Below, piece by piece: positions 3,652-18,228 of a stretch of DNA of 20,784 nt (position 1 is its first letter; each line of letters opens with the position of its first letter). The notes under the pieces are model-generated. The model saw nothing but the letters and a program-made list of their open reading frames with translations, was not told the DNA's origin and made no database searches. The DNA is from a virus: positions 1 to 20,784 of IMG/VR virus record IMGVR_UViG_3300023172_000245, one strand, 5' to 3'. The position numbers were made by a program, and so were the translations under genes.

Positions 3652-4745
3652 AAAAAATCCTTGTAACAGGTATGAATAAGCTGCAGTGTACGAAAGACTT
3701 CTTTCTGCAGCAACAACTTCAGGTTGTGCCATCTCACTATTCACTCATTCGTTGCCTTGAAGATATGGGATATGAGGTTGAACAGCGGCCTGTCAGACTA
3801 GGCGAGAACCTAGATCACTATGATGAGGTAGTGGTATACATTCACAGCATCCAGGCCTTCTGTCAATTCCTATGGTCCGGACTGTATGCCGTACATGCTC
3901 GCCCAAACTGCATCTTAGCTTTTGACGATTGGCAGTTTAAACAGATCTACAGCACTATTGAAACATATAAAGAGAAGCTCGAAGCAAACGATGAAGGTGT
4001 ATTCCGCCAGTATCTCTTTGATCTATGGCAAGGTGTAGAAGATAAAGAAACTGTAGCGTCATATAAAGAACAATATATCGATGCTTGTAACATTATCACC
4101 AGTAAAGAGAATCGTTTGCTTGTAAGCGCCTTTGCAGGTGGTGATATGTCAACACTAGAACTTGGCTGGAAAGAAGAAAACGTTTACACATATAATCCAA
4201 ATCCTTATCATCTAAATCGTCGTGCAGACAACGGTTATGGAACAGGTAGTGTTGGTTTGGATAGTTTCTTTGGTGATACACCAGAAAAAGAAATGAAATG
4301 GAATTTTGCGTCTCTTGTTCAAGAGAAAACGCGAAAATGGCTCAAGGCGCAGCAACCTGACGATTGGAAGTGGGAGATTGTTTACTATGGCGCAAAGCGT
4401 GGTAAATATAAGTCAGAGCGTAAAACCGAACCGGAAATGGTAAAAGTATTCGAACAACAATGGGGCTGTCTAATGCCCGGATACTTCCATGCCGGATCTG
4501 GGTGGTGGCGAGCACGCCCACTGCAGGTTGCTGACGCCGGTTCTATTATTATTGGTGACAAACCAGAAATGATGGTGTATTATAAAGATGAGGGTCTTGC
4601 TGGACTTCGAGTACAAGACGTAGAAGCAATGGATCTTACTCAATTGCAAGCTACTGCCAAAGCTCAGCGAGATGCTCTATATGATAACCATCCTTTGGAT
4701 CAGAGCATTCAAAGAAACGAGCTTGAGAGAGTATTAGCAGCATGA
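3648..4745 (+). CDS. Putative GT-B-fold glycosyltransferase (candidate DNA glycosyltransferase)
   Basis: The protein has 365 aa. Its N-terminus (KKILVTGMNK, then HYSLIRCLEDMGYEVE at 29-44) has the Rossmann start seen in GT-B enzymes. The C-terminal half has a second alpha/beta unit: WEIVYYG (about 242-248), WGCLMPGYFHAGSGWWRARP (273-292), then a short strand and an acidic end before VEAMDL, as in GT-B donor-binding domains. The gene sits between the hydroxymethylcytosine-precursor genes and a UDP-sugar mutase whose start overlaps its stop (ATGA at 4742). A role in moving a sugar from the mutase product onto hydroxymethylcytosine is therefore my best inference. I cannot assign it to a named family. 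It could also modify something other than DNA. Confidence 0.55.
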   Translation: MKKILVTGMNKLQCTKDFFLQQQLQVVPSHYSLIRCLEDMGYEVEQRPVRLGENLDHYDEVVVYIHSIQAFCQFLWSGLYAVHARPNCILAFDDWQFKQIYSTIETYKEKLEANDEGVFRQYLFDLWQGVEDKETVASYKEQYIDACNIITSKENRLLVSAFAGGDMSTLELGWKEENVYTYNPNPYHLNRRADNGYGTGSVGLDSFFGDTPEKEMKWNFASLVQEKTRKWLKAQQPDDWKWEIVYYGAKRGKYKSERKTEPEMVKVFEQQWGCLMPGYFHAGSGWWRARPLQVADAGSIIIGDKPEMMVYYKDEGLAGLRVQDVEAMDLTQLQATAKAQRDALYDNHPLDQSIQRNELERVLAA

Positions 4746-5743
4746 AGTATTTAGTAGTAGGTGCGGGTCTATCAGGTTGTGTGGTTGCTCGTGAGCTTGC
4801 AAGAGCAGGACATAATGTAGATGTAATTGATAAACGAGATCACGTAGCCGGTAATGCATATGATTATGAGAATGAACATGGCATTCGAGTTCATAAGTAT
4901 GGTCCTCATCTATTTCATACTAATAATGAAGAAGTATTTGAATGGCTTTCACAGTTTACTGAGTGGGTTGAGTATCGGCACAAAGTTAAAGCTCAACTCT
5001 CGGATGGACAATACGTCACATTACCAGTAAATCGTGAAACAAAAGATATTGTCGGTGAGGAGAATGTTCTCGACGTATTCTTCAGACCTTATACCAAGAA
5101 GATGTGGGGTGTCGAACTTGATCAGTTGAATCCTGATATTATCAATCGAGTTCCTATTCGTGATGATTACAACGAAGAATACTTTCCAAATGATAAGATA
5201 CAATTCATGCCACGGCATGGCTATACTAAAATGGTTGAGAACATTCTCACTCACCACAATATAACTGTATCTTTAAATACTGAATATAATTATCATATGG
5301 ATAAAGAATACGATCATGTGTTTAATTCTATGCCAATTGATGAATGGTTTGAATGGAAATATGATAAGCTTCCATATCGTTCAATCAAGTTTGAGACTGT
5401 AAGCCTGCCGATTCCACGGGCATTACCAACCGCTACTGTAAACTTTACTCATCACGGCCCAAAGACTCGTGTTACTGAATGGAAGAATATTCCCTGTCAC
5501 GGCGATAATAAATATATCACAACGCTAACGTTCGAGGAACCATGCGATTACTCTGAGAATAACTATGAACGTTATTATCCAGTAAAAGATCGCGATGGTA
5601 AGAACCGAGAGCTATACAAAAAATATAAAGCCGAAATACCAGAGCATATGACCTTTATCGGTCGCTGCGGTTTGTATGCCTATCTTGATATGCATCAGGC
5701 TGTGAGCACAGCGCTCTCAACAGTGAGAAAGTTTTTAGCATGA
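4742..5743 (+). CDS. glf: UDP-galactopyranose mutase
   Basis: This flavoenzyme interconverts UDP-galactopyranose and UDP-galactofuranose; relatives can also act on UDP-arabinopyranose. Visible signatures are the FAD Rossmann GAGLSG (7-12), the acidic end of strand 2 (VIDKR, 28-32), AGNAYD (36-41), YGPHLFHT (53-60), YTKKMWG (117-123), RVPIR..Y (136-143), FMPRHGYT (155-162), and the C-terminal GRCGLYAYLDM (307-317) that closes the flavin site. The length, 333 aa, is somewhat below bacterial Glf (about 370-390) but all core motifs are present, so it is probably active. It overlaps both neighbours by 4 nt (ATGA). Its presence implies the phage needs a furanose sugar donor during infection. Confidence 0.92.
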   Translation: MKYLVVGAGLSGCVVARELARAGHNVDVIDKRDHVAGNAYDYENEHGIRVHKYGPHLFHTNNEEVFEWLSQFTEWVEYRHKVKAQLSDGQYVTLPVNRETKDIVGEENVLDVFFRPYTKKMWGVELDQLNPDIINRVPIRDDYNEEYFPNDKIQFMPRHGYTKMVENILTHHNITVSLNTEYNYHMDKEYDHVFNSMPIDEWFEWKYDKLPYRSIKFETVSLPIPRALPTATVNFTHHGPKTRVTEWKNIPCHGDNKYITTLTFEEPCDYSENNYERYYPVKDRDGKNRELYKKYKAEIPEHMTFIGRCGLYAYLDMHQAVSTALSTVRKFLA

Positions 5744-6948
5744 GTGATATTACCCACGCAAGTATCGTACCACTAATTGGAGGTGAAACTATTGGTTCCC
5801 ATCGAGCCTTTGGTGCACCTCCAATTCATTTTATGTCATATGAACCTTTTGCTGGTAATGACAAACATATTCTAAATTATTACGACAACAAGATTCCATA
5901 TTATGTTCTAGATAAAGGACATAGGCCACCGCCAGGCGAAAGAGCAAATGTTGTATCATCAGTGTGTCCATGCGCTGGTTTATCAATGATGTCACATGGA
6001 TACGGTGACGACAACGAAAACAACAAATGGATGATTGAGACTGCAAAGTATATTCTTGGTGAATATAGACCAGACTGTTTCTGGGGCGAGAACGCTCCAG
6101 GATTTGCTGGTAAGATTGGAACTAATGTTCGTAATCAATTGAAACAGATTGGTAAGGACAATGGATATACGATGAGTGTATACCGGACTAGATCTCTACT
6201 TCATGGTGTTCCACAGGTACGAGAACGCTCATTTTATTTCTTCTGGAAACGAGATAACGGCGTACCAATCTTTGAATACTACAATCGTGAGTACACACCA
6301 ATCGAAGAATTAATTCGTAATGTAAAATCAAACTTTCAAACTGAACCTATCAATACTAAAAAGCCTTCCGACAACCCGTACTATAAGTACATTCTTGAAG
6401 AGATTGAAGGAGGCAAAACTCATACAGAGCATTCTCGCGATGTAGATCCAACGTCAGCTCGTGGTGTGGATTCTTTCTCTTATATCGAAAGAGCAGGTAA
6501 AACTTATAATGAAGTTGCTGACTGGATGGCTGCAAACGGTTTTGAGAAAGAAGTTGATAAGTGCCACTATAAACATGAGAAACTTGCTAAGGGTGGGTCG
6601 ATTATGAGAAGAGGTGTCATTGTTCCAAAAGATCGTATCGGCGCTTTCGTTGGCCACTATCCTACTATGCTTACTCATCCTGATGAAGATCGATTTATTA
6701 ATTACCGAGAAGCTATGTCAATCATGGGCTTGCCCGAAGACTTTGAATTGGTCGATGCGGGCCCTAAGGTAGCAAATCATATTTGCCAAAATGTCCCTGT
6801 GCAAACAGCCACAGACATGGCCACAGAGGTTCTAGCAACACTTAAAGGTCTAAGAAAAATGGTTGACACCGATTACATTTTGCAGTATAATGGTACTCAG
6901 AAGCTTGAATACCAAGAAAACATTACTACACTTGAGGCTTTTCTATGA
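5740..6948 (+). CDS. C5-cytosine DNA methyltransferase-like protein
   Basis: The 402 aa contain the ordered motifs of the C5-cytosine methyltransferase family: a motif I-like PLIGGETIGSHRAFG (11-25), motif IV VCPCAGLS with catalytic Cys78 (75-82), motif VI ENAPG (117-121), motif VIII HGVPQVRER (155-163), a variable region of about 150 residues that could hold the target-recognition domain, motif IX-like YREAMSIMGLPEDF (322-335) and motif X QNVPV (350-354). Motif I and the ENV element are unusual in detail but the catalytic Cys is intact. In a phage that already makes hydroxymethyl-dCMP, ordinary C5 methylation would find little substrate. It may act on residual or host cytosine, or have a new chemistry. 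Confidence 0.85.
   Translation: MSDITHASIVPLIGGETIGSHRAFGAPPIHFMSYEPFAGNDKHILNYYDNKIPYYVLDKGHRPPPGERANVVSSVCPCAGLSMMSHGYGDDNENNKWMIETAKYILGEYRPDCFWGENAPGFAGKIGTNVRNQLKQIGKDNGYTMSVYRTRSLLHGVPQVRERSFYFFWKRDNGVPIFEYYNREYTPIEELIRNVKSNFQTEPINTKKPSDNPYYKYILEEIEGGKTHTEHSRDVDPTSARGVDSFSYIERAGKTYNEVADWMAANGFEKEVDKCHYKHEKLAKGGSIMRRGVIVPKDRIGAFVGHYPTMLTHPDEDRFINYREAMSIMGLPEDFELVDAGPKVANHICQNVPVQTATDMATEVLATLKGLRKMVDTDYILQYNGTQKLEYQENITTLEAFL
6863..6891 (+). promoter_or_regulatory. Consensus sigma70-type promoter inside the methyltransferase gene
   Basis: TTGACA at 6863-6868 and TATAAT at 6886-6891 have the ideal 17-bp spacing, ending 53 bp before the dexA start. Perfect match in both boxes makes this more than chance; it would allow dexA and the following glycosyltransferase to be transcribed separately from the upstream operon. 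Confidence 0.65.
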
Positions 6949-7580
6949 GAACTGACTTTATCCTAGACTTTGAAACAATTGGCCAGTGTGCTCGTAAGGC
7001 GCCTGGCATTGAGTGTTCTTATGCAACATTTGTATGGGATCGCTTTCTTGATGAGCCTTATTCTTTTCAAGAACTTTTAGGTATCATTCAAAAAGCAAAA
7101 CTTGATTTGCAAGATCAAATAAAGAACTATGACTTTGAATATCAAAAGTCAGATCTTGATTGGTGGCTACAGCAAGCACCAGAAGTTCGTAAGCTTTTAA
7201 AACCAAAGCCAGATGATCTTAAGCTACCACAGTTTATTGAGCAGATGATCGGATATCTTCGTACTCAAGATAAAGTTGATTACTGGTGGAGCCGTTCAAA
7301 CGGTTTTGACCCAGTTATTCTAGATCATATGGCAATGGCCGTAGGCAAGGACAAGTTTCTAAACGAGTACATTCCTTACTGGCGTATACGTGATACTCGT
7401 ACATTTATTGATGCGAAGTTTAACTTTACAACAAAGAATGGATTCGTACCCGTTGCAGATACTGAGCAATGGGAAAAAGTATTTAGTGCTCATGATAGCA
7501 GACATGATGTCGCAGCAGACATCCTTCGGATTCAGGCTATTCATAGAGCAGAAAATGATATGGAGCAAGTAGAAATATGA
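6945..7580 (+). CDS. dexA: DexA-like 3'-5' DNA exonuclease
   Basis: A DEDDh-type 3'-5' exonuclease of 211 aa. The catalytic set is visible: Asp8 and Glu10 in ILDFETIG, Asp122 in SNGFDPVILDHM, and His183 with Asp188 in AHDSRHDVAADIL (182-194). The DWW (71-74) segment and overall length also match T4 DexA. T4 DexA degrades single-stranded or host DNA. The start overlaps the methyltransferase stop (ATGA), and the 3' end overlaps the next gene by 4 nt. An internal promoter at 6863-6891 can drive it independently. Confidence 0.88.
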   Translation: MRTDFILDFETIGQCARKAPGIECSYATFVWDRFLDEPYSFQELLGIIQKAKLDLQDQIKNYDFEYQKSDLDWWLQQAPEVRKLLKPKPDDLKLPQFIEQMIGYLRTQDKVDYWWSRSNGFDPVILDHMAMAVGKDKFLNEYIPYWRIRDTRTFIDAKFNFTTKNGFVPVADTEQWEKVFSAHDSRHDVAADILRIQAIHRAENDMEQVEI

Positions 7581-8476
7581 AAATTGAAATCTCTTTAGAC
7601 AAACTCAAAGAGCAGAAGCTCTTTATCGGTACTCCGATGTACGGTGGTAACTGCTCAGGCTCATATGCTAAGTCCTGTAACGACCTGGCTATGATGTGTG
7701 CAGCAAATGGTATTCCTATCCGTTTTTATTATCTCTTTAACGAGAGCCTTATCCAGAGGGCACGTAATTATGTTGTAGATGAGTTCCTCAGATCTGATTG
7801 TACTCACCTTGTATTCATCGATTCAGACATCGCATTTAATGCTAAAGATGTTCTAGGATTAATTGCTGTAAATCTAGCAGACACCGAGAATCATAATATT
7901 GTTGTAGGACCTTATCCTAAGAAAACAATCGCGTGGGAAAAGGTTGCTAAGGCTGCAGAGCTTGGTAAAGGTGACGAAAATCCATTCGAGCTTGATAACT
8001 ATACAGCAGACTATGTATTTAATCCTGTTAAGAAATTAGATACATTTAATGTTGGTGAACCACTTGAGATTGGTGAGGGTGGTACAGGCTTTATGTGTAT
8101 TCCACGAGAAACACTTGAGAAATATCGCGATGCCTATCCTGAACTTCAGTACAAACCAGATCATGTTCGTACGGACAAGTTTGATGGTTCGCGAGATATC
8201 ACAGCGTTCTTTGACTGTGTAATTGATCCGGAATCGCGTCGTTATCTATCAGAGGATTACTTCTTCTGTAGGAAAGCCCGTGACATCGGTATGAAAGTGA
8301 TTATGTGCCCTTGGATGCACCTCAATCACATTGGCACTTATATCTTTAAAGGTAATATGGCTGCTATTGGTTCTCTCGGTGTGTCAGCCACCGCAGACAG
8401 TAAAAGCAATCGTAAAACTTATGCCAATAAAAAACAGTTGACAAAATCCAAAAAACGTAGTAAAATTAATACATAA
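7577..8476 (+). CDS. GT-A-fold glycosyltransferase-like protein
   Basis: The 299-aa protein begins with a nucleotide-binding strand and loop (LFIGTPMYGG, 15-24). It has the donor-sugar/metal motif IDSDIAF with Asp82-Ser-Asp84 (DxD type), a glycine-rich EIGEGGTGFM (about 172-181), a conserved SEDYFFC segment (about 225-231) that would supply the acceptor-side acid, and WMHLNHIGTY near the C-terminus (about 249-258). The last 30 residues are very rich in Lys, which could bind DNA. Similar proteins are widespread in large myophages. It is a second candidate for decorating modified bases, or for modifying host or virion glycans. It closes the modification operon. Confidence 0.75.
   Translation: MKIEISLDKLKEQKLFIGTPMYGGNCSGSYAKSCNDLAMMCAANGIPIRFYYLFNESLIQRARNYVVDEFLRSDCTHLVFIDSDIAFNAKDVLGLIAVNLADTENHNIVVGPYPKKTIAWEKVAKAAELGKGDENPFELDNYTADYVFNPVKKLDTFNVGEPLEIGEGGTGFMCIPRETLEKYRDAYPELQYKPDHVRTDKFDGSRDITAFFDCVIDPESRRYLSEDYFFCRKARDIGMKVIMCPWMHLNHIGTYIFKGNMAAIGSLGVSATADSKSNRKTYANKKQLTKSKKRSKINT
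8438..8466 (+). promoter_or_regulatory. Sigma70-type promoter for the sliding-clamp gene
   Basis: TTGACA at 8438-8443, 17 bp, then TAAAAT at 8461-8466 at the end of the glycosyltransferase gene. Transcription should begin near 8473, just upstream of the gp45 ribosome site AAGGAG (8489-8494). Confidence 0.7.
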
Positions 8477-8502: not shown

Positions 8503-9165
8503 ATGAAGTTTAGTGAACGTACTCTTACCATTCTTAAGAGTTTTTCGACTATCAACAAGTCGATTCTTATGAAACCCGGCGGTGTACTTAAAACAGTAAC
8601 ACCAGAAAAGACATTGGTTGCGTCTGCAACTATTCCAGATCAGATTCCATCTCAAGCATGTATCTATGATTTGTCAAGATTTTTGTCAATTTTATCACTT
8701 TACAAGGATCCCGACGTAGAGTTTCATGATAAATACTTTATGATCAACGATGGTCGTCGTAAGACGAAATATGTTTACGCTGACATATCAATGATTCATG
8801 CAGCTCCCGAAAAAGAGATTCAACTGCCATCTCTGGATGTAGTTGTTGATGTTTCTTGGGAAGACCTACAGTCTGTTCTTAAGGCTGCAGGTGTGTTACA
8901 ATTCTCTGAGGTAGCCTTTGTAGGGACCGAAGGGAAAATCTGGTTGAAAGCTATTGATAGCAACAATCAAAATTCTGATGATTATGGTGTTGAAATCGGC
9001 ACTACATCTGATGAATTTAAGATTATCATTAAAACCGATAATCTTAAGCTCTTGCCTCAGGATTACAAAGTTTCTCTTTGCGCAAAGGGAATCTCTGAGT
9101 TCAAGGGTACGGACGTCACGTACTTCGTGGCAATTGATACTAAGTCGACTTATCAGAAAGGATAA
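8503..9165 (+). CDS. 45: Sliding clamp (DNA polymerase processivity factor, gp45)
   Basis: The trimeric ring clamp tethers DNA polymerase to DNA and, in T4, also activates late transcription. The 220 aa match T4 gp45 in length (228). The N-terminus MKFSERTLTILKSFSTIN parallels the T4 start, followed by IYDLSRFLSILSL (54-66) and a C-terminal half with TSDEFKIIIKTDNLKL-PQDYKV and AKGISEFKG. Weak sequence conservation is normal in this family. The gene has its own promoter (8438-8466) and a strong Shine-Dalgarno 8 bases before ATG. It is separated from gp44 by one small gene and an intrinsic terminator, which would let clamp be made in excess over loader. Confidence 0.93.
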   Translation: MKFSERTLTILKSFSTINKSILMKPGGVLKTVTPEKTLVASATIPDQIPSQACIYDLSRFLSILSLYKDPDVEFHDKYFMINDGRRKTKYVYADISMIHAAPEKEIQLPSLDVVVDVSWEDLQSVLKAAGVLQFSEVAFVGTEGKIWLKAIDSNNQNSDDYGVEIGTTSDEFKIIIKTDNLKLLPQDYKVSLCAKGISEFKGTDVTYFVAIDTKSTYQKG

Positions 9166-9171
9166 CAAATT

Positions 9172-9459
9172 ATGAATGAAGCTCAAGCAGCTCAAGCACC
9201 CGAGGGACAAGCACCTCAACCGATCCAACTTTCTCTTCAGGATCTAGCAACTGTTGTACAGTTCGTAGACGTTGCGTCTCGCCGCGGCGCAGTAGCCGGC
9301 AACGAGATGGCAATTATTGGAATGCTTCGTAACAAAATCGAAATGTTCCTACAACAGAATGCTCCGCAAGGAGCTCCCGATGGTAACATGCCGGCAGCCG
9401 ATGCTCCAGCTCCGGATGTACCTGAGGACGCACCACTCGCTGACAAAGTGGTACAATAA
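9172..9459 (+). CDS. Ala/Pro-rich hypothetical protein (95 aa)
   Basis: It starts 6 nt after the gp45 stop, with AGGA at 9161-9164 as ribosome site, and ends directly before a terminator hairpin. Residues 20-60 (SLQDLATVVQFVDVASRRGA) form a likely helical domain. The ends are low-complexity Ala/Pro/Gln (1-18) and Ala/Pro/Asp (64-90), so the termini are probably disordered. Co-transcription with the clamp suggests a replication or late-transcription accessory role, but I do not recognise it. Confidence 0.72.
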   Translation: MNEAQAAQAPEGQAPQPIQLSLQDLATVVQFVDVASRRGAVAGNEMAIIGMLRNKIEMFLQQNAPQGAPDGNMPAADAPAPDVPEDAPLADKVVQ

Positions 9460-9491
9460 TGAGTGGGGCTTCGGCCCCCTCATTTCTTTTT
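9460..9491 (+). terminator. Rho-independent terminator after gp45 unit
   Basis: TGAGTGGGGC (9460-9469), a TTCG tetraloop (9470-9473) and GCCCCCTCA (9474-9482) pair over 9 bp with one bulged T, followed by TTTCTTTTT (9483-9491). This is a classic strong intrinsic terminator. Confidence 0.92.
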
Positions 9492-9510
9492 ATATGATGA
9501 TGGTGATTGA

Positions 9511-10464
9511 ATGTCTATTGATGCAAAAGCAAATGAAGTACTTTGGGTAGAGAAGTACAGGCCAATGGTAATTGGCGACACAATTCTACCAGACAAAACT
9601 AAATCTGCTTTCAAAAAATTTGTAGCAGATGAATCTATTCCTAACTTACTACTCACTGGCGGTCCAGGTGTTGGCAAAACTACAATCGCAAAAGCTATGC
9701 TCGATGAACTTGGCTGCGATTATATTATTAAAAACGGCTCACTTAACGTCAATATCGATACCCTCCGATATGACATCTCCACGTTTGCCTCAGCGGTTTC
9801 CTTCACAGGTGGTAGAAAATACGTCATCTTTGACGAGGCGGACTATCTCAACGCAGCAAATGTTCAACCCGCGCTACGCAACTTTATTGAAGAATATTCA
9901 AGCAATTGCGGGTTCATCTTTACTTGTAACTTTAAAAATCGTATAATCTCTCCACTTCGTTCTCGTTTGTCAGAGGTTGACTTTACCATCGAGCAATCCG
10001 ATCGGCCAAAGCTCGCGATGCAATTCCTACGCCGTGTTGAAGCTATTCTTGAACAAGAAAACGTTGCGTATGATAAAGCAGTTGTTGCAAAAGTAATCCA
10101 AAAACACTTCCCTGATTTTCGACGTGTACTTACAGAGTTGCAATCTTACTCCGCTTCTGGCGCTATTGATGAAGGTATCTTTGTTAATCTCAAACAAGAA
10201 TCCCTTGATGAACTCTTTAAACTTCTAAAGAGTAAAGACTTCACAAACATGCGTAAGTGGGTTGCAAAGAACTCAGATCAAGATATGAACGAGATGTTCC
10301 GTCGTATCTATGATATGGCCAATGATAAGGTCGAACTCAGATCTCAGCCAGGCTTTATCGTAACTCTTGCAGACTATATGTACAAAGCAAACTTTGTCGC
10401 TGATCTTGAGATAAATATGGTTGCATGCCTCACTGAAATCATGATGGAGACATCCTTTAAATGA
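9511..10464 (+). CDS. 44: Clamp loader large subunit (gp44, AAA+ ATPase)
   Basis: This ATPase opens and loads the gp45 ring at primer-template junctions. The 317 aa match T4 gp44 (319). Visible are WVEKYRP (12-18), Walker A GGPGVGKTT (50-58), Walker B VIFDEAD (105-111), sensor 1 in FIFTCN (135-140) and the arginine-finger box SPLRSRL (147-153), where the common SRC is SRL. The C-terminal collar domain follows. The ribosome site before ATG 9511 is weak. The gene lies just past a terminator, so its expression depends on read-through or on a promoter I could not identify. The stop overlaps the next gene (ATGA). Confidence 0.95.
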   Translation: MSIDAKANEVLWVEKYRPMVIGDTILPDKTKSAFKKFVADESIPNLLLTGGPGVGKTTIAKAMLDELGCDYIIKNGSLNVNIDTLRYDISTFASAVSFTGGRKYVIFDEADYLNAANVQPALRNFIEEYSSNCGFIFTCNFKNRIISPLRSRLSEVDFTIEQSDRPKLAMQFLRRVEAILEQENVAYDKAVVAKVIQKHFPDFRRVLTELQSYSASGAIDEGIFVNLKQESLDELFKLLKSKDFTNMRKWVAKNSDQDMNEMFRRIYDMANDKVELRSQPGFIVTLADYMYKANFVADLEINMVACLTEIMMETSFK

Positions 10465-10682
10465 ATAACGTAGAAGTATATGGCATCATGCCACAGATTA
10501 CAACAAGTAATTACTACACCACTAATACTACTGTTCATGGTGTTAAGGTAACACAAACGAAACATCTTGAAACACCGACTGGAGTGACATGGGTTGAAAC
10601 CGTTCAATGGACCCGTTACGACCATGCTGGTCGAGTGATTGATGAGAAACCACAGGGACAATTCGTTGATATTGTAGTATGA
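10461..10682 (+). CDS. Hypothetical protein (73 aa)
   Basis: The ATG overlaps the gp44 stop (ATGA at 10461-10464), indicating coupled translation. The 73 residues are Thr/Val-rich with an alternating pattern (NYYTTNTTVHGVKVTQT at 17-33, then TGVTWVETVQWTRYD), so a small beta-sheet protein is likely. I recognise no family. It is the first of four small genes inserted between the two clamp-loader subunit genes. Confidence 0.68.
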   Translation: MNNVEVYGIMPQITTSNYYTTNTTVHGVKVTQTKHLETPTGVTWVETVQWTRYDHAGRVIDEKPQGQFVDIVV

Positions 10683-10683
10683 A

Positions 10684-10872
10684 ATGGCTAAAGTGATGAT
10701 GTGCGATCCGCCCAGCGGTTGGAAGTATGGTTTTCCTAAACCTTTACCCGCAGACTTAGGCGAAGATGAAAGTATCCTTCCTTGGCTGTTGAGCGAAGGT
10801 TATCCGCAGAAAGAGATTGACAACTGCGGCAAATACTTTTATGTTAGATATTGGGAAGAAGATGATGGTTGA
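10684..10872 (+). CDS. Hypothetical acidic protein (62 aa)
   Basis: It starts one base after the previous stop (TGAAATG). The 62-residue acidic protein has PPSGWKYGFPKPLP (9-22), then DESILPWLLSEGYP (28-41), then a Tyr/Trp/Glu-rich end. No motif I can name. Close packing with neighbours supports translation; function unknown. Confidence 0.65.
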   Translation: MAKVMMCDPPSGWKYGFPKPLPADLGEDESILPWLLSEGYPQKEIDNCGKYFYVRYWEEDDG

Positions 10873-11086
10873 AATTAGTGATAATGAATATCAGCTTTAC
10901 CAAAAGCTCTTAAAAATTTGGAAGCATAGCTCACCTGAAAAAACTGGTGCATACTTCATTTGTGGTGAAGCGGGTGAGAAAGACGATTTAGGTTTGCCTG
11001 AATACATTCACGTTTGCCCATCTTATGGATTAGATGGAATAGCTTCATATAAATTGCACAAAGATTATTCAGCGCCGGAGTGGTAA
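10862..11086 (+). CDS. Hypothetical protein (74 aa)
   Basis: The frame extends further upstream with another ATG at 10817, but that would overlap the preceding gene by 56 nt. The ATGATG at 10862-10867, with GGAAGAAG just before it, is the more likely start. The product has 74 aa, with a charged N-terminus (EISDNEYQLYQKLL), a central CGEAGEKDDLGLPEYIHVCP and a Tyr-rich end. No family recognised. The stop abuts the next ATG directly. Confidence 0.62.
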   Translation: MMVEISDNEYQLYQKLLKIWKHSSPEKTGAYFICGEAGEKDDLGLPEYIHVCPSYGLDGIASYKLHKDYSAPEW

Positions 11087-11284
11087 ATGAGCGAATGGAT
11101 GAAACGTCTTATTAAAAAGCATACTTGCTTTTATTGTGAAAAAACAGTTGACAAAGCTGACTTGTTTAGTATAAAATTAGATACAAGTGAAGGGCCTCTT
11201 GAATTAAAAGCCTGCCCCACTTGTGCAGATGATTTAAATGATATTTTGAAAAAGATTGAGGAAGCTCGTGGCGAAGGACTATAA
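11087..11284 (+). CDS. Small zinc-ribbon protein (65 aa)
   Basis: Two CxxC pairs, CFYC (Cys14, Cys17) and CPTC (Cys43, Cys46), are separated by 25 residues of strand-like sequence: the layout of a zinc ribbon that binds one zinc ion. A basic N-terminus (KRLIKKH) and an acidic C-terminal helix flank it. Such proteins often bind nucleic acid or other proteins. It follows its neighbour with no gap and overlaps gene 62 by 17 nt, so it is probably co-translated with the clamp loader small subunit. Confidence 0.75.
   Translation: MSEWMKRLIKKHTCFYCEKTVDKADLFSIKLDTSEGPLELKACPTCADDLNDILKKIEEARGEGL
11148..11175 (+). promoter_or_regulatory. Possible intragenic sigma70-type promoter before gene 62
   Basis: TTGACA at 11148-11153 and TATAAA at 11170-11175 (16-bp spacing) lie in the zinc-ribbon gene, about 90 bp before the gp62 start. 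Both boxes are good, but the site is inside coding sequence. Confidence 0.4.
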
Positions 11285-11666
11285 CCCATTTGATTTTATG
11301 ACAGCAGCTTCTTTCTCGAAGGAAGATCTGATTAACAATAACGAAAATCCAGAACTGATTGAAAAGCAGTACATTCCTTATATGGTAAATCGTGGTTTCG
11401 CAAACTTCGAGGATACTATCTTACATGCGAATGAAATGAATCAACGAGCTCATATGTTCCATGCCGCTCAGTTTCAATATTATCGTGGAGCACTACGCAA
11501 GCGTAAACGTTTCTCAAAGTGGCCAAAGGCCGATAAAGATGCAGACTTAGATGCAATCCAGCAGGTCTATCAGTGTAACCGTACCGTAGCCAAGATGTAC
11601 CAGAAAGCTTTGAGTAAAGAAGATATGAAATATGTACATAGCAAACTTGTCACAGGGGGAGTGTGA
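11268..11666 (+). CDS. 62: Clamp loader small subunit (gp62)
   Basis: The partner of gp44 in the clamp loader. The protein reads AKDYNPFDFM at its start, then EKQYIPYMVNRGFANFEDTILHANEMN (centre) and RKRKRFSKWPK, the hallmarks of the short gp62 of marine T4-like phages. It is about 132 aa against 187 in T4. I prefer the GTG at 11268, with AGGAAG at 11259-11264 just upstream; a TTG at 11256 is the alternative. No ATG fits, so translation begins with a non-ATG codon, and the start overlaps the zinc-ribbon gene by 17 nt. In T4, gene 62 directly follows 44; here about 800 bp separate them. Confidence 0.85.
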   Translation: MAKDYNPFDFMTAASFSKEDLINNNENPELIEKQYIPYMVNRGFANFEDTILHANEMNQRAHMFHAAQFQYYRGALRKRKRFSKWPKADKDADLDAIQQVYQCNRTVAKMYQKALSKEDMKYVHSKLVTGGV

Positions 11667-11670
11667 AAAA

Positions 11671-11678
11671 TATAAATA
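11671..11678 (+). promoter_or_regulatory. T4-type late promoter (TATAAATA) before regA
   Basis: An exact TATAAATA lies 4 bp after the gp62 stop and 61 bp before the regA start. T4-like phages read this box with the gp55 sigma factor and gp45 clamp. Its intergenic position and orientation support function. A late start would give a 5' leader of about 55 nt carrying the ATA repeats. Confidence 0.6.
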
Positions 11679-11707
11679 TTGTTTGGATGGTCATGGTGAG
11701 CATCGTG

Positions 11708-11725
11708 ATAATAACAATAATAATA
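11708..11725 (+). other. ATA/ACA trinucleotide tract in the regA leader
   Basis: Six trinucleotides in a row (five ATA and one ACA) lead directly into the regA Shine-Dalgarno AAGGA (11725-11729). RegA proteins repress translation by binding A/U-rich RNA around start sites, including their own, so this unstructured tract is a candidate autoregulatory operator. Confidence 0.4.
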
Positions 11726-11739
11726 AGGATGCTGTGGTT

Positions 11740-12141
11740 ATGCAAGAAGATATTTTTAAAGGGGTGGGAATTGAGATCTCTCTTCCCTCGCCAGATAGCT
11801 TTTTAAAAGTCAAAGAAACACTAACACGAATCGGTATTTCATCTCGTAAAGATAAGACTTTATATCAAACTTGCCATATTCTTCACAAACAAGGTCGTTA
11901 TGCAATTCTACATTTTAAAGAGTTGTTTATCCTAGACGGAAAGAAAGACACCTTCTCAGAAGAAGATAAGGCTAGAAGAAATACTATCGTAAATTTGCTT
12001 GAGGAATGGGATCTCATCTCAGTTGTAAATACGGAGAAAGCTCAAGATCCAGTTGCTCAGCTTAATCAAATTAAGATTCTATCTCATAAAGAGAAAAATG
12101 AATGGAACTTAGAGGCTAAGTACAATATAGGAAAAAAATGA
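11740..12141 (+). CDS. regA: Translational repressor RegA
   Basis: RegA binds A/U-rich ribosome sites on early mRNAs and, in T4, represses genes 44, 45, 62 and its own. The 133 aa carry the family core: SFLKVKETLTRIGIS with KDKTLYQTCHILHKQGRY, then ILHFKELF, EEDKARRNTIVNLLEEWDLI and a C-terminal HKEKNEW-LEAKYNIG. T4 RegA has 122 aa, and its N-terminus matches GIEISL here. From ATG 11740 the protein has about 9 extra residues; a GTG at 11764 would give the T4-like start, but only 11740 has a Shine-Dalgarno (AAGGA, 10 bases upstream). The frame is open further upstream into gene 62, which I regard as fortuitous. Confidence 0.93.
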   Translation: MQEDIFKGVGIEISLPSPDSFLKVKETLTRIGISSRKDKTLYQTCHILHKQGRYAILHFKELFILDGKKDTFSEEDKARRNTIVNLLEEWDLISVVNTEKAQDPVAQLNQIKILSHKEKNEWNLEAKYNIGKK

Positions 12142-13169: not shown

Positions 13170-13403
13170 ATGGCTAATAAAAACCCATTTGAAATTCGTT
13201 CAGAAATGCTAACACTTGCAAAAGATTATATGGATCAGCAGTATCACATGAACGTGTCGTTTGCTGAAAAAATGATGGATGCAGGTAAGATGCAGATGGA
13301 AGAATTTCAAAAGCACATCGAAATGTATTCTGTAGAAGAGCTTATGTCTAAAGCGAAAGAAATGTATTCCTTCGTTTCTGACAAAGGTGATTCTACGAAA
13401 TAA
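13170..13403 (+). CDS. Small conserved-looking phage protein (77 aa)
   Basis: The product begins MANKNPFEIRSEML and is a helical, Met-rich protein (residues 15-60) with a charged C-terminal helix. ATG 13170 has a strong AAAGGAG at 13157-13163. A second in-frame ATG at 13095 has its own AAAGGA (13082-13087) and would add 25 residues with an unrelated Tyr/His/Asn-rich composition. I favour 13170 as the main start. I recall similar short proteins next to structural modules in T4-likes, but cannot name a function. The stop overlaps the convergent tape-measure gene by 11 bp. Confidence 0.68.
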   Translation: MANKNPFEIRSEMLTLAKDYMDQQYHMNVSFAEKMMDAGKMQMEEFQKHIEMYSVEELMSKAKEMYSFVSDKGDSTK

Positions 13404-15453
13404 ATGATAGGTTGTAGGGGTCGTCGCTTCCAAAGCCGCCCCCGCCACCACCGAAGGAGGCCATCTGAATATAGTTGGCCGACTTCCCACCCTCTACATT
13501 ATTCACGACAGGCGCACTTATTTGAGGTGCATTAATTACAACAGGAGCACCGCCAACTCCTCCGTATGATGCTAGACCAATCATACTGTTGTTAAATCTT
13601 CCTCCATTAAAAGACATTTTTTGGATGGTTCCGAGTTCTTCTCTATCAAAATATCTAAACTTACCGTCAGATCCAAAATTTGGTGTGTAACGATATTGCG
13701 TATTAGAGTTTGGGCCTGTTCCATATCCATAGAAAGACGAAGGACCGGTGTAGTTATCTCTTGTTTGTCCTCTAAAGTTTGGAACAGCGTACATATCTTC
13801 TAGAACACTATAGTTCGGATCTTGCCCGCGATAGTATTCACCTAATTTGCTTTCTTGTTGTCCCAAAATGCGAGCTCTTTCATCTGCTGGTAAAGCGTCA
13901 AATTCTCTTCTTTTTTTGTCTGATTGCTCTTTTTGATATTGTTCAATTGCTTTTTCTACTTCTTGTCCAATAATCACCATGAAGTCTACGTGAGCTTCAT
14001 TAGCAGGATTAAAGGTAGTCTTTTCTCCAAAGGCTTCTTCAGACATTTCAAAGAAAATTTCTGTAGCAACACTTCCAATATCTACAGCGGTACCAGATAT
14101 TGTAGGCAAAAACAAGGATACGCCGTTGGCTGCCGCAGATGTATAATCTCCTTTAAATAAGTTATTAAGAGCAAGCCAAGCTCCAACGCCCATGCCAATA
14201 ATTGGAAGAGCGGTTCCGAAAACTTTCCAAACTTTATCTTTGGCAAGAGAAACAATTTTAGGTCTCAGCTTTTGCCCAGCTTGCTTTCCAATATCAGAAA
14301 TAGTTGCTCTTATAGGAGGTGATGTACTAATGCCAGGTATATGGACTCTGCCACCAATAATGTCAGCACTCAATGCTCGTTGTGCAGCGTCTCTTGCCGC
14401 ACCTCTAAGTGGAGTATCAGGTTTAGATCTAGAATAGAATTCTCCATCTTTTACTACGAAGTTTCTTCCACTCAGATCAATGTTTCCAAGATTTGTAGTA
14501 ACCTTACCGCTTGGATTACTAGACATTCCGTCTGGTAATTTAGAATCAGGAATTATTTTACCAGTTTCGTCTAGATATCTTCCCGGTTTTAAAGGATCGT
14601 CATAGATTGGTCTGCCATCTTTTGACACACCAATTGGTGTTTTTGATGACGCAACTGGTAAATCTGGCTTTGGAACTTTTGTTGGATCACCACCTGACAA
14701 TTTTATAGCATTTCTAGAAGCTCTCCAATTGGCAATTGCAGTAGAGGCTCTAAAACCAGCTATGGTTGCTTTCAGTCCAAGTATGGTAAGAGTAACGTTG
14801 CTTAAAGCATTCCATATGCCACTGATCAGATCTGTCCATCCATATTCTTCCCATTTTGTTTTAAAGTCTTGAAATGCTTTAGTAATGTCATTAATCATAT
14901 TTGTAAGCTTGGGTAGAGAATCAACAAAGTTTGTAATATTTTCAGTTAGTTTTGTTGTGTCAATATTAGCAAGACTTCTACCGAGGCTACCAATCCCGGT
15001 TTCCATCTTGTCCCAAGCTCCATCATACTTTTGATTAATGAAACCTTTAAGGAAATTATATCCGACAAACATTCCAGCAGCGCCTACTGCTAGATTCTTA
15101 AGACTCAAAGCAGATGAAAGCTTTCTAGCTACGTCGTCTATTCTTCTTTCAGTTCCACTTCGTCCTGGGCCTGAGGTAGCCGGTGACGAATCGTTTTCTA
15201 CTGTTGGAGGAGTAAGCTCTTCGTATTGTCTTCTTGTTTCTTCGTTTCTACGGGCTTGAGCTGCTAATCCGGCCTGAGCTCTCAAAAGATCGGTCTGAGC
15301 AACAAGTTGTCTATTAATACTTGTAAACAAACCTTCAAACTTATCTAATTTGATAGTCATCGTGCGCAGAGAATTAGTTCCGCTATTGCGAATTAAATCA
15401 CCTTCTGCTTTAAGTCTATCTATGATAGCTTGTGTTTCTTCTGATACTGCCAT
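13393..15453 (-). CDS. Probable tail tape-measure protein (gp29-like)
   Basis: The largest gene in the window (686 aa) lies directly after the tail-assembly-chaperone gene pair, the usual position of tape measures. It has a helical, charged N-terminal third (residues 1-80), hydrophobic segments at about 119-138, 210-235 and 411-433, and long Ala/Gly- and Lys-rich helices. A low-complexity Gly-rich C-terminus (about 665-680) follows INAPQISAPVVNN. Such proteins set tail length and move through the membrane with the DNA. T4 gp29 has 590 aa; residue-level similarity is not evident to me, so the call rests on size, composition and context. AAGG about 9 bases upstream is the ribosome site, inside the end of the preceding frame. 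Confidence 0.6.
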   Translation of the reverse strand: MAVSEETQAIIDRLKAEGDLIRNSGTNSLRTMTIKLDKFEGLFTSINRQLVAQTDLLRAQAGLAAQARRNEETRRQYEELTPPTVENDSSPATSGPGRSGTERRIDDVARKLSSALSLKNLAVGAAGMFVGYNFLKGFINQKYDGAWDKMETGIGSLGRSLANIDTTKLTENITNFVDSLPKLTNMINDITKAFQDFKTKWEEYGWTDLISGIWNALSNVTLTILGLKATIAGFRASTAIANWRASRNAIKLSGGDPTKVPKPDLPVASSKTPIGVSKDGRPIYDDPLKPGRYLDETGKIIPDSKLPDGMSSNPSGKVTTNLGNIDLSGRNFVVKDGEFYSRSKPDTPLRGAARDAAQRALSADIIGGRVHIPGISTSPPIRATISDIGKQAGQKLRPKIVSLAKDKVWKVFGTALPIIGMGVGAWLALNNLFKGDYTSAAANGVSLFLPTISGTAVDIGSVATEIFFEMSEEAFGEKTTFNPANEAHVDFMVIIGQEVEKAIEQYQKEQSDKKRREFDALPADERARILGQQESKLGEYYRGQDPNYSVLEDMYAVPNFRGQTRDNYTGPSSFYGYGTGPNSNTQYRYTPNFGSDGKFRYFDREELGTIQKMSFNGGRFNNSMIGLASYGGVGGAPVVINAPQISAPVVNNVEGGKSANYIQMASFGGGGGGFGSDDPYNLSFIS

Positions 15454-15457
15454 TTAA

Positions 15458-15634
15458 TTAACCTTGCTGTGCCTGTTGTTGTTCTTGAATATGACTAATC
15501 AGCATACTAAAATACAAATCTCTTTCGTATGGTATCAAATTTTCAATATCACTTATAGAGTATTTATGGTGCTGAGCCATCGAGAAATTAATTCTGTAAT
15601 AGTCCTTGAGGCTAATATGACTCAGCACTAGGAA
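15458..15634 (-). CDS. gp51/GT-like extension reached by -1 frameshift
   Basis: In the -1 frame relative to gp26, translation continues past the gp26 stop for 58 codons to TAA at 15458-15460, five bases before the tape-measure ATG. The sequence is protein-like, with HHKYSISDIENLIPYERDLYFSML (residues 22-45 of the extension). That resembles the short C-terminal domain of lambda GT-type tail chaperones and the PYERDLY segment of gp51-like proteins. It has no Shine-Dalgarno start of its own; the only in-frame ATG (15580) lacks one. The fusion would be about 289 aa. This is best read as the long form of the tail-assembly chaperone. Confidence 0.72.
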   Translation of the reverse strand, partial: FLVLSHISLKDYYRINFSMAQHHKYSISDIENLIPYERDLYFSMLISHIQEQQQAQQG

Positions 15635-15640
15635 AAAAAA
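15569..15640 (-). promoter_or_regulatory. Programmed -1 ribosomal frameshift signal
   Basis: On the minus strand a run of eight T (15640-15633) contains the slippery heptamer T_TTT_TTT in the gp26 frame. After a 5-nt spacer, GTGCTGAGTCAT (15628-15617) pairs with ATGGCTCAGCAC (15580-15569) over 12 bp with one G-U pair, closing a 36-nt loop. The gp26 stop codon (15630-15628) overlaps the stem base. Slippery site, spacing and stem all match known signals. Confidence 0.8.
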
Positions 15641-16326
15641 GAGTTAATTCCTTCAATAACAAAAGTTTTCTCATCTCCGTTACTATTCTTATAAGATACT
15701 TCATGACGTAGCTTTGGCATGGTGTCGAAGAAATTTTGAATTCCTTTTACAACCGGTGCCGATATTCCCTCCATAAACTCATCAATTTCTTTTTGAGTAT
15801 ACTTATGGAATTCAAAGACTTCGTCCTCAGAAGCGACTTTATCTAAACAAGAAATCATAATTACATAGTTCGCTAAAGGATCTGAAGGATCGATACTAGC
15901 GATTTTAATGAACTCATCTATTGTAGGGTATCTTAGAAATAGAACATAGTCATCGTTAATAGGAACTTGATTAGTATGATTAGGATCTTTGGTAACCTTT
16001 ACCTCATCTAAATCTAATTCCAAATCTACTTGCTCGTTTGTGTCTGGATCTACTATGCTAAACTTAACACCGTTTTCTACTGATCTTGCTCTGATAAGTA
16101 GAAGCATATATTCCATATCAAACATAGCTAGTTTGCTAGCATCTGTATCAATTAAACAATTATTTAAAACTTGCTTGATTGCTAAGACGTTTTGTTCTGG
16201 GTCTTCGCTTTCAGAAGCAACAAGAAGAATTTTTTCTTCTTTTACTGTAAACACTCTATATTTGACTTTCTCACCTGTTGATGGCAAGGTTGTTTCAAAA
16301 ATAGGAAGATCAATTTTTGGTAGCAT
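15628..16326 (-). CDS. 26: Baseplate hub / tail assembly chaperone (gp26-like)
   Basis: The 232-aa protein starts LPKIDLPIFETTLPSTGEKVKYRVFTVKEEKILLVASES, the N-terminus typical of the T4 gp26 family of marine T4-likes (T4 gp26 is 208 aa). LNNCL (about 50-54), YMLLLIRARSVE and FLRYPTIDEFIK follow. In T4, gp26 and gp51 act in baseplate-hub assembly. Position before the tape measure and the frameshift at its end suggest it is the short form of a G/GT-type chaperone pair. AGGAG at 16341-16337, 10 bases before ATG, is the ribosome site. Its 0-frame ends with a run of Phe codons and TAG. Confidence 0.85.
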   Translation of the reverse strand: MLPKIDLPIFETTLPSTGEKVKYRVFTVKEEKILLVASESEDPEQNVLAIKQVLNNCLIDTDASKLAMFDMEYMLLLIRARSVENGVKFSIVDPDTNEQVDLELDLDEVKVTKDPNHTNQVPINDDYVLFLRYPTIDEFIKIASIDPSDPLANYVIMISCLDKVASEDEVFEFHKYTQKEIDEFMEGISAPVVKGIQNFFDTMPKLRHEVSYKNSNGDEKTFVIEGINSFFS

Positions 16327-17761: not shown

Positions 17762-18228
17762 TATTTGATTCCTAATTGGTCCTCAGTATATATGTGGAAT
17801 GTCCATCCACGTTGTGCACACCACGCTCGAGCTGCTTTCCACTTTGCTTCATTGATACCGTACGTTTTCACCTCGTTAATATATCGCCTTGATAAGTTGC
17901 CCTTAGCCGTTTTCATTTTAGATCTATCCGGCGGTCTTGTTTGTCCTTTTGGTTTGATCTCAATCATCATAGTAGATTGAGTTCCATCCGGTCCTTTTTT
18001 ACAAACAACAACATCAGGAAAATACCGATGCCTCTTACCGTCAATTGGTGAATAGTATGGAATTACATATTCCTCACTGGCCCACCATAAAACATGCGGG
18101 TGTTCATCAACATAACGAAAGAATTTGAACTCCCACATAGATCTATAATAAATTTTTGTTGGATCACCTTTATATTTTACGGGGTTCTTTGGTCTAAACC
18201 TTCCACCATACGCCACGTGCCGCCTCAT
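17761..18228 (-). CDS. 4: Head completion protein (gp4 homologue)
   Basis: Acts in finishing DNA-filled T4-like heads. The 155 aa read GGRFRPKNPVKYKGD near the start, YYRSMWEFKFFRYVDEHPHVLWWASEEYVIPYYSPIDGKRHRYFPDVVV (27-75), MIEIKPK-QTRPP (88-100) and AKWKAARAWCAQRGWTFHIYTED near the end, closely following T4 gp4. The acids Glu33, Asp72 and Glu90 with Lys92 (E...PD...EIK) form a PD-(D/E)xK nuclease-like active site, so it may cut DNA during head completion. It is the first gene of the minus-strand operon, with a late box at 18264-18257, 28 bp upstream of ATG. Confidence 0.9.
   Translation of the reverse strand: MRRHVAYGGRFRPKNPVKYKGDPTKIYYRSMWEFKFFRYVDEHPHVLWWASEEYVIPYYSPIDGKRHRYFPDVVVCKKGPDGTQSTMMIEIKPKGQTRPPDRSKMKTAKGNLSRRYINEVKTYGINEAKWKAARAWCAQRGWTFHIYTEDQLGIK

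Follow-up and report, generated by a model that had tools for sequence, protein, structure and literature searches.

In the lambda G/GT and HK97 gp13/gp14 systems, a short tail assembly chaperone and a long form made by a -1 shift are encoded in turn, followed by the tape measure protein. Vladimirov et al. 2022 reportedly identified the tail assembly chaperones of the T4-like phages; their abstract is reported to describe conserved frameshifting in several of these groups and, in T4, the use of two distinct genes, 26 and 51. In T4 these two genes lie on opposite strands. A passage of the PRFect paper cites Vladimirov, Gautam and Davidson 2022 (Virology 566:9-15) for some T4-like phages having a short gene and a longer fusion gene with no frameshifting (PMC10885494), and a passage of the phage Adele paper cites the same work for poly-T -1 frameshift signals in T4-like TAC-N genes (PMC12846349). 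The frameshift idea is therefore already in the literature, although a preliminary description of the locus analysed here, made from its sequence alone, knew of no established account for T4-type gp26/gp51. In the chaperone gene of Vandenendeviridae and Andersonviridae, as in phage Adele, a -1 frameshift is described at a poly-T tract at the end of TAC-N and before the tape measure gene (PMC12846349); these are other phage families, and the motif there is GTTTTT. Sullivan et al. 2010 reported that cyanophage and marine vibriophage gp51 are without the first ~200 residues of T4 gp51, the cyanophage protein being 'only ~20% of the length' (PMC3037559). Their short gp51 is the same ORF after gp26 that is considered below, and was treated there as a reduced separate gene.

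We analysed a stretch of viral DNA of 20,784 nucleotides (IMG/VR record IMGVR_UViG_3300023172_000245), the whole of which is called the window here and whose source is a marine T4-like phage. The features of its gp26 locus are listed in Table 1. The gp26 frame ends, at the coordinates given in the preliminary description, in a run of eight U (15640-15633, minus strand) that contains U_UUU_UUU; the 3' end of the gene reads GGA ATT AAC TCT TTT TTT TCC TAG. A spacer of 5 nt (15633-15629) separates the heptamer from a 12-bp stem that takes in the last base of the stop codon, an arrangement that had been read from the sequence and is borne out both there and in the predicted fold. In the -1 frame, 58 codons are open (15634-15461) up to a TAA at 15460-15458, as first described; the gap from this TAA to the ATG at 15453 of the probable tape measure gene had been given as 5 bases and is actually 4. 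Joined to gp26 by the shift, the extension gives a fusion of 289 aa.

Table 1. Positions of the features of the gp26 locus in the window.
Feature	Position	Strand	Details and basis
gp26 ORF, predicted short tail assembly chaperone (TAC-N)	15628..16326	-	232 aa, TAG 15630-15628; phrog_150, PF12322
Slippery heptamer U_UUU_UUU, in gp26 frame	15634..15640	-	Sequence and relatives
Stem 5' arm	15617..15628	-	Begins at last base of gp26 stop; fold and covariation
Stem 3' arm	15569..15580	-	Fold and covariation
-1 frame extension, putative gp51 C-terminal domain of long chaperone	15458..15634	-	phrog_634, pN/pS
686-aa ORF, probable tape measure protein	13393..15453	-	Position; weak phrog_1283 match

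From comparison with related sequences we consider it very probable that a -1 programmed ribosomal frameshift gives two tail assembly chaperones from this one gene. Most ribosomes would stop at the end of gp26 and yield the short form, equivalent to T4 gp26 and like lambda gpG. Some would slip back by one base on U_UUU_UUU, probably helped by the stem 5 nt downstream, and would read 58 more codons to yield the long form, equivalent to T4 gp51 and like lambda gpGT. Both forms would presumably bind the tape measure protein, whose gene lies just downstream, and guide tail assembly; they are encoded directly upstream of the 686-aa ORF, whose match to the tail-length family phrog_1283 is weak (E 0.0032). 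The basis for this reading is the slippery site, an open -1 frame that is under selection, a covarying stem and homology of the fusion to T4 gp51. Compared with lambda G/GT and HK97 gp13/gp14, the slippery site here is poly-U and the short form has roughly double the length. The protein families and the short/long pair are the same as in the T4-like gp26/gp51 chaperones of Vladimirov et al.; in the window one gene would provide what T4 makes from two, and a covarying stem immediately downstream of the slippery site is particular to the window's clade.

To describe conservation at the junction, we used 80 relatives with identities of 62-100%, a further 80 with identities as low as 38% and four named phages, which reduce to 128 distinct junctions. 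A canonical U_UUU_UUU or U_UUU_UUC stands at the end of gp26 in 127 of them, nearly always one codon ahead of the stop, so that the U run is kept among relatives. The -1 extension is open in all 128 and mostly 53-65 codons long. Together, these two counts indicate that the junction is more than a product of chance. The codon ahead of the two Phe codons encodes different residues but has T as its third base in 125 of 128 junctions, compared to about 61% for S/T/G/D/N codons in the rest of gp26. The same layout is found in S-SM2, B23, HTVC008M, P-SSM4, P-SSM2, RL2RES, OLIVR6 and phiN3, and also in the Straboviridae PVA8 and Aeromonas phage 65. Collectively, these comparisons with relatives mark the window's site as a real -1 programmed frameshift site of a known class, and they strongly support a mechanism that had been proposed from sequence.

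Some loci depart from the usual form. The sole non-canonical heptamer among the 128 is G_UUU_UUU (L041, likewise L042 and L043), and at one locus (L080) the extension has 85 codons, not about 55-60, with an added C-terminal tail. The more distant Vibrio phage VAP7 (Ackermannviridae) and Pseudomonas phage Cygsa01 have gp26 and an open -1 extension, joined at a non-canonical U run that is shorter and outside the usual codon phase (CAC GUU UUU CGC and AGC AUU UUC ACC, respectively), and the slip there must therefore differ.

Poly-T runs can cause RNA polymerase slippage, and with eight consecutive U in the window the long form might be attributed to transcriptional slippage and not to ribosomal frameshifting. 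Against this, many relatives (at least 68 of the 128) have just six T and then C, as in U_UUU_UUC; the run keeps to the codon phase that slippage by ribosomes requires; and a structured region lies downstream of it. We therefore regard transcriptional slippage as extremely unlikely.

The coding character of the extension was assessed over its first 48 codons, with 55 sequences from the window's clade. The pN/pS values were 0.26 for the -1 frame, 1.07 for the frame of gp26 and 1.88 for the remaining frame; stops numbered 0, 254 and 287, respectively. The end of gp26 itself gave a pN/pS of 0.32 in this clade. The extension thus evolves as a protein in the -1 frame, and the plausible protein that had been read there is under codon-level selection. 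A +1 frame was also considered and was rejected as short and not conserved. These values bear on the suggestion that the U run is a sequencing or assembly error, or marks a decayed gene, and that the true gene is one continuous frame. Homopolymer runs are error-prone and T4 gp51 is indeed one continuous frame; yet the same frame break recurs in 128 independent distinct junctions and in many public isolates, the heptamer stays in frame while the surrounding bases vary, and both frames are under purifying selection. We give an error or decay almost no credence.

A different account would make the extension a separate small gp51 gene, translated from its own start or by termination-reinitiation near the gp26 stop. 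Annotations of many cyanophages present it so, and public records that do are those of P-SSM2, P-SSM4, S-SM2, HTVC008M and phiN3; in the window a GTG overlaps the gp26 stop. Across relatives, however, the start is not fixed: the triplet that overlaps the stop varies (GTG, GCG, ATG, ACG, AGT and others), and at 19 of 128 loci none of ATG, GTG and TTG occurs within roughly ten codons downstream of the stop. Ahead of the first candidate start, a Shine-Dalgarno-like motif is present at 4 of 127 loci, compared to 80 of 126 for gp26, and no start comes near the slippery site in constancy. Moreover, T4 gp51 carries a gp26-like domain and the extension in one chain. Since neither a start codon nor a ribosome-binding site is conserved, an independent gp51 start was rejected, and a separate gene is, in our view, very unlikely. 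The preliminary description had named a separate and well-conserved gp51 gene elsewhere in the genome as a finding that would speak against frameshifting; none was found in eight relatives of 77-195 kb, genomes that may be incomplete, in which the only gp51-family match (phrog_634/phrog_150) is the -1 frame.

With programmed frameshifting, the 'gp51' of cyanophages, pelagiphages and vibriophages probably represents the C-terminal portion of a frameshifted gp26-gp51 protein and not a truncated gene. This would explain why cyanophage and vibriophage gp51 appear to be without the first ~200 residues, and the explanation for the truncated-looking cyanophage protein may be new. The frameshift reading would correct the widespread annotation of a short 'gp51' and would resolve the reports of gp51 missing in some phages.

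Structure prediction gave the 12-bp stem, which has one G-U pair, as the principal helix, in a fold of -21.9 kcal/mol (z -2.0; 9 of 200 shuffles did as well). Covariation within the window's clade was quantified on 49 distinct sequences relative to 500 partner shuffles. Paired stem cells made up 85.9% compared to 82.4% in the shuffles, the covariation score was 0.188 compared to 0.136, and 29 cells were changed on both sides compared to 15.4; for each measure, none of the 500 shuffles was as high. The signal was destroyed when the partner was slid by 1-3 columns. The clearest covarying pair joins the first base of a Ser/Cys codon (AGY/TGY) to the silent third base of an Ala codon (GCT/GCA). 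On the gp26 tree, the clearest inner pair had 6 same-branch changes, out of 8 and 7, to be read beside one control site that shared 5 of its 12 changes with the tested site. Well-supported branches alone provide only 2 independent pairs, too few for a verdict on the covariation.

The window's stem was not found at the same positions in cyanophages, where pairing was no better than with swapped arms. Of the conservation looked for among relatives, covariation within the window's clade therefore held, and presence at these positions in cyanophages did not. On average, the cyanophage junction region is more stably folded than its shuffles (mean z -2.0), and another structure may serve there in place of the window's stem. 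At some cyanophage junctions, for example L110 and L120, a different hairpin (GGTATGGCTCA...GAGTCATACT) is seen a few bases past the slippery site. We found no description of the covarying stem in the literature, and it may be new.

At the level of protein families, gp26 matched phrog_150, a baseplate hub family, at E 1e-59 (profile 7-232 of 282) and PF12322 at 180.9 bits (cut-off 24.5). The extension continues phrog_150 at 232-276, after the part matched by gp26, and matched the gp51 family phrog_634 at E 3.2e-24. T4 gp51 spans 13-280 of phrog_150 and T4 gp26 spans 14-235. A profile built from 126 fusions together with the window aligned with nearly the whole length of T4 gp51 (12-275 with 7-243, E 2e-5) and with T4 gp26 (16-233, E 2e-10), compared to E 0.03 or worse for the decoys, namely three shuffles and four further T4 proteins. 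By the phrog_150 spans and the fusion alignments, T4 gp26 is the counterpart of the short form and T4 gp51 that of the long form. In some Acinetobacter phage records, gp26 and gp51 are named tape measure protein assembly chaperones. In the record of Acinetobacter phage 133, the annotation of gp27, which adjoins the gp51/gp26 pair, describes a fusion to a hypothetical protein of an Acinetobacter phage.

An AlphaFold model of gp26, built from the window and metagenome rows only, was confident (mean pLDDT 86.7). The best solved matches by VIA-align were 3fgx (Z 7.9), 2ob9 (Z 7.6) and 3klu (Z 6.3), with the next at 4.4; a VIA Z below 8 can reflect a common arrangement and is alone no proof. All three were matched on about residues 1-92 of the model. 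Of these structures, 2ob9 is the HK97 tail assembly chaperone gp13, which the N-terminal domain of the model appears to resemble, and 3klu is YqbN, which we take to be a chaperone-family protein of a Bacillus prophage. The agreement of these top matches would fit a tail assembly chaperone. Foldseek of the model against the PDB gave no match with E < 0.001, and a search of the gp26 profile against the sequences of solved structures revealed no convincing relative, including no sequence similarity to the lambda and HK97 chaperones. The initial reading of the locus as a lambda G/GT layout is thus supported by the profiles and more weakly by the fold.

The relation of the one-gene and two-gene states was examined in a tree of 24 gp26-type domains, which is unrooted and has long branches. 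A branch supported at 98/99 splits all frameshift genes from T4-type gp26 and gp51, and T4-type gp51 forms a supported group. The tree appears to fit a single duplication in the T4-type lineage and does not prove its direction. Frameshifting occurs in some Straboviridae and in other families, from which we infer that it is the simpler ancestral state. On balance, and with modest confidence, we favour the view that the clade-specific covarying 12-bp stem over the gp26 stop is a stimulator, that one-gene frameshifting is ancestral and that the opposite-strand pair of T4 arose by one duplication. The T4 pair beside the one-gene state provides a natural case in which a recoded gene and a duplicated pair do the same job.

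Other genes in the window include a T4-type replication block (8503-12141, plus strand) with the sliding clamp gp45, the clamp loader gp44 and gp62, and a RegA-type translation repressor. A gene at 4742-5743 (plus strand) encodes a 333-aa protein that reads like a UDP-galactopyranose mutase, and it adjoins a glycosyltransferase-like gene (7577-8476) and a DNA methyltransferase gene (5740-6948). On the minus strand, at 17764-18228, a head closure (gp4-like) protein has an N-terminal match to the TnsA-like endonuclease family PF08722 (E 1.3e-21).
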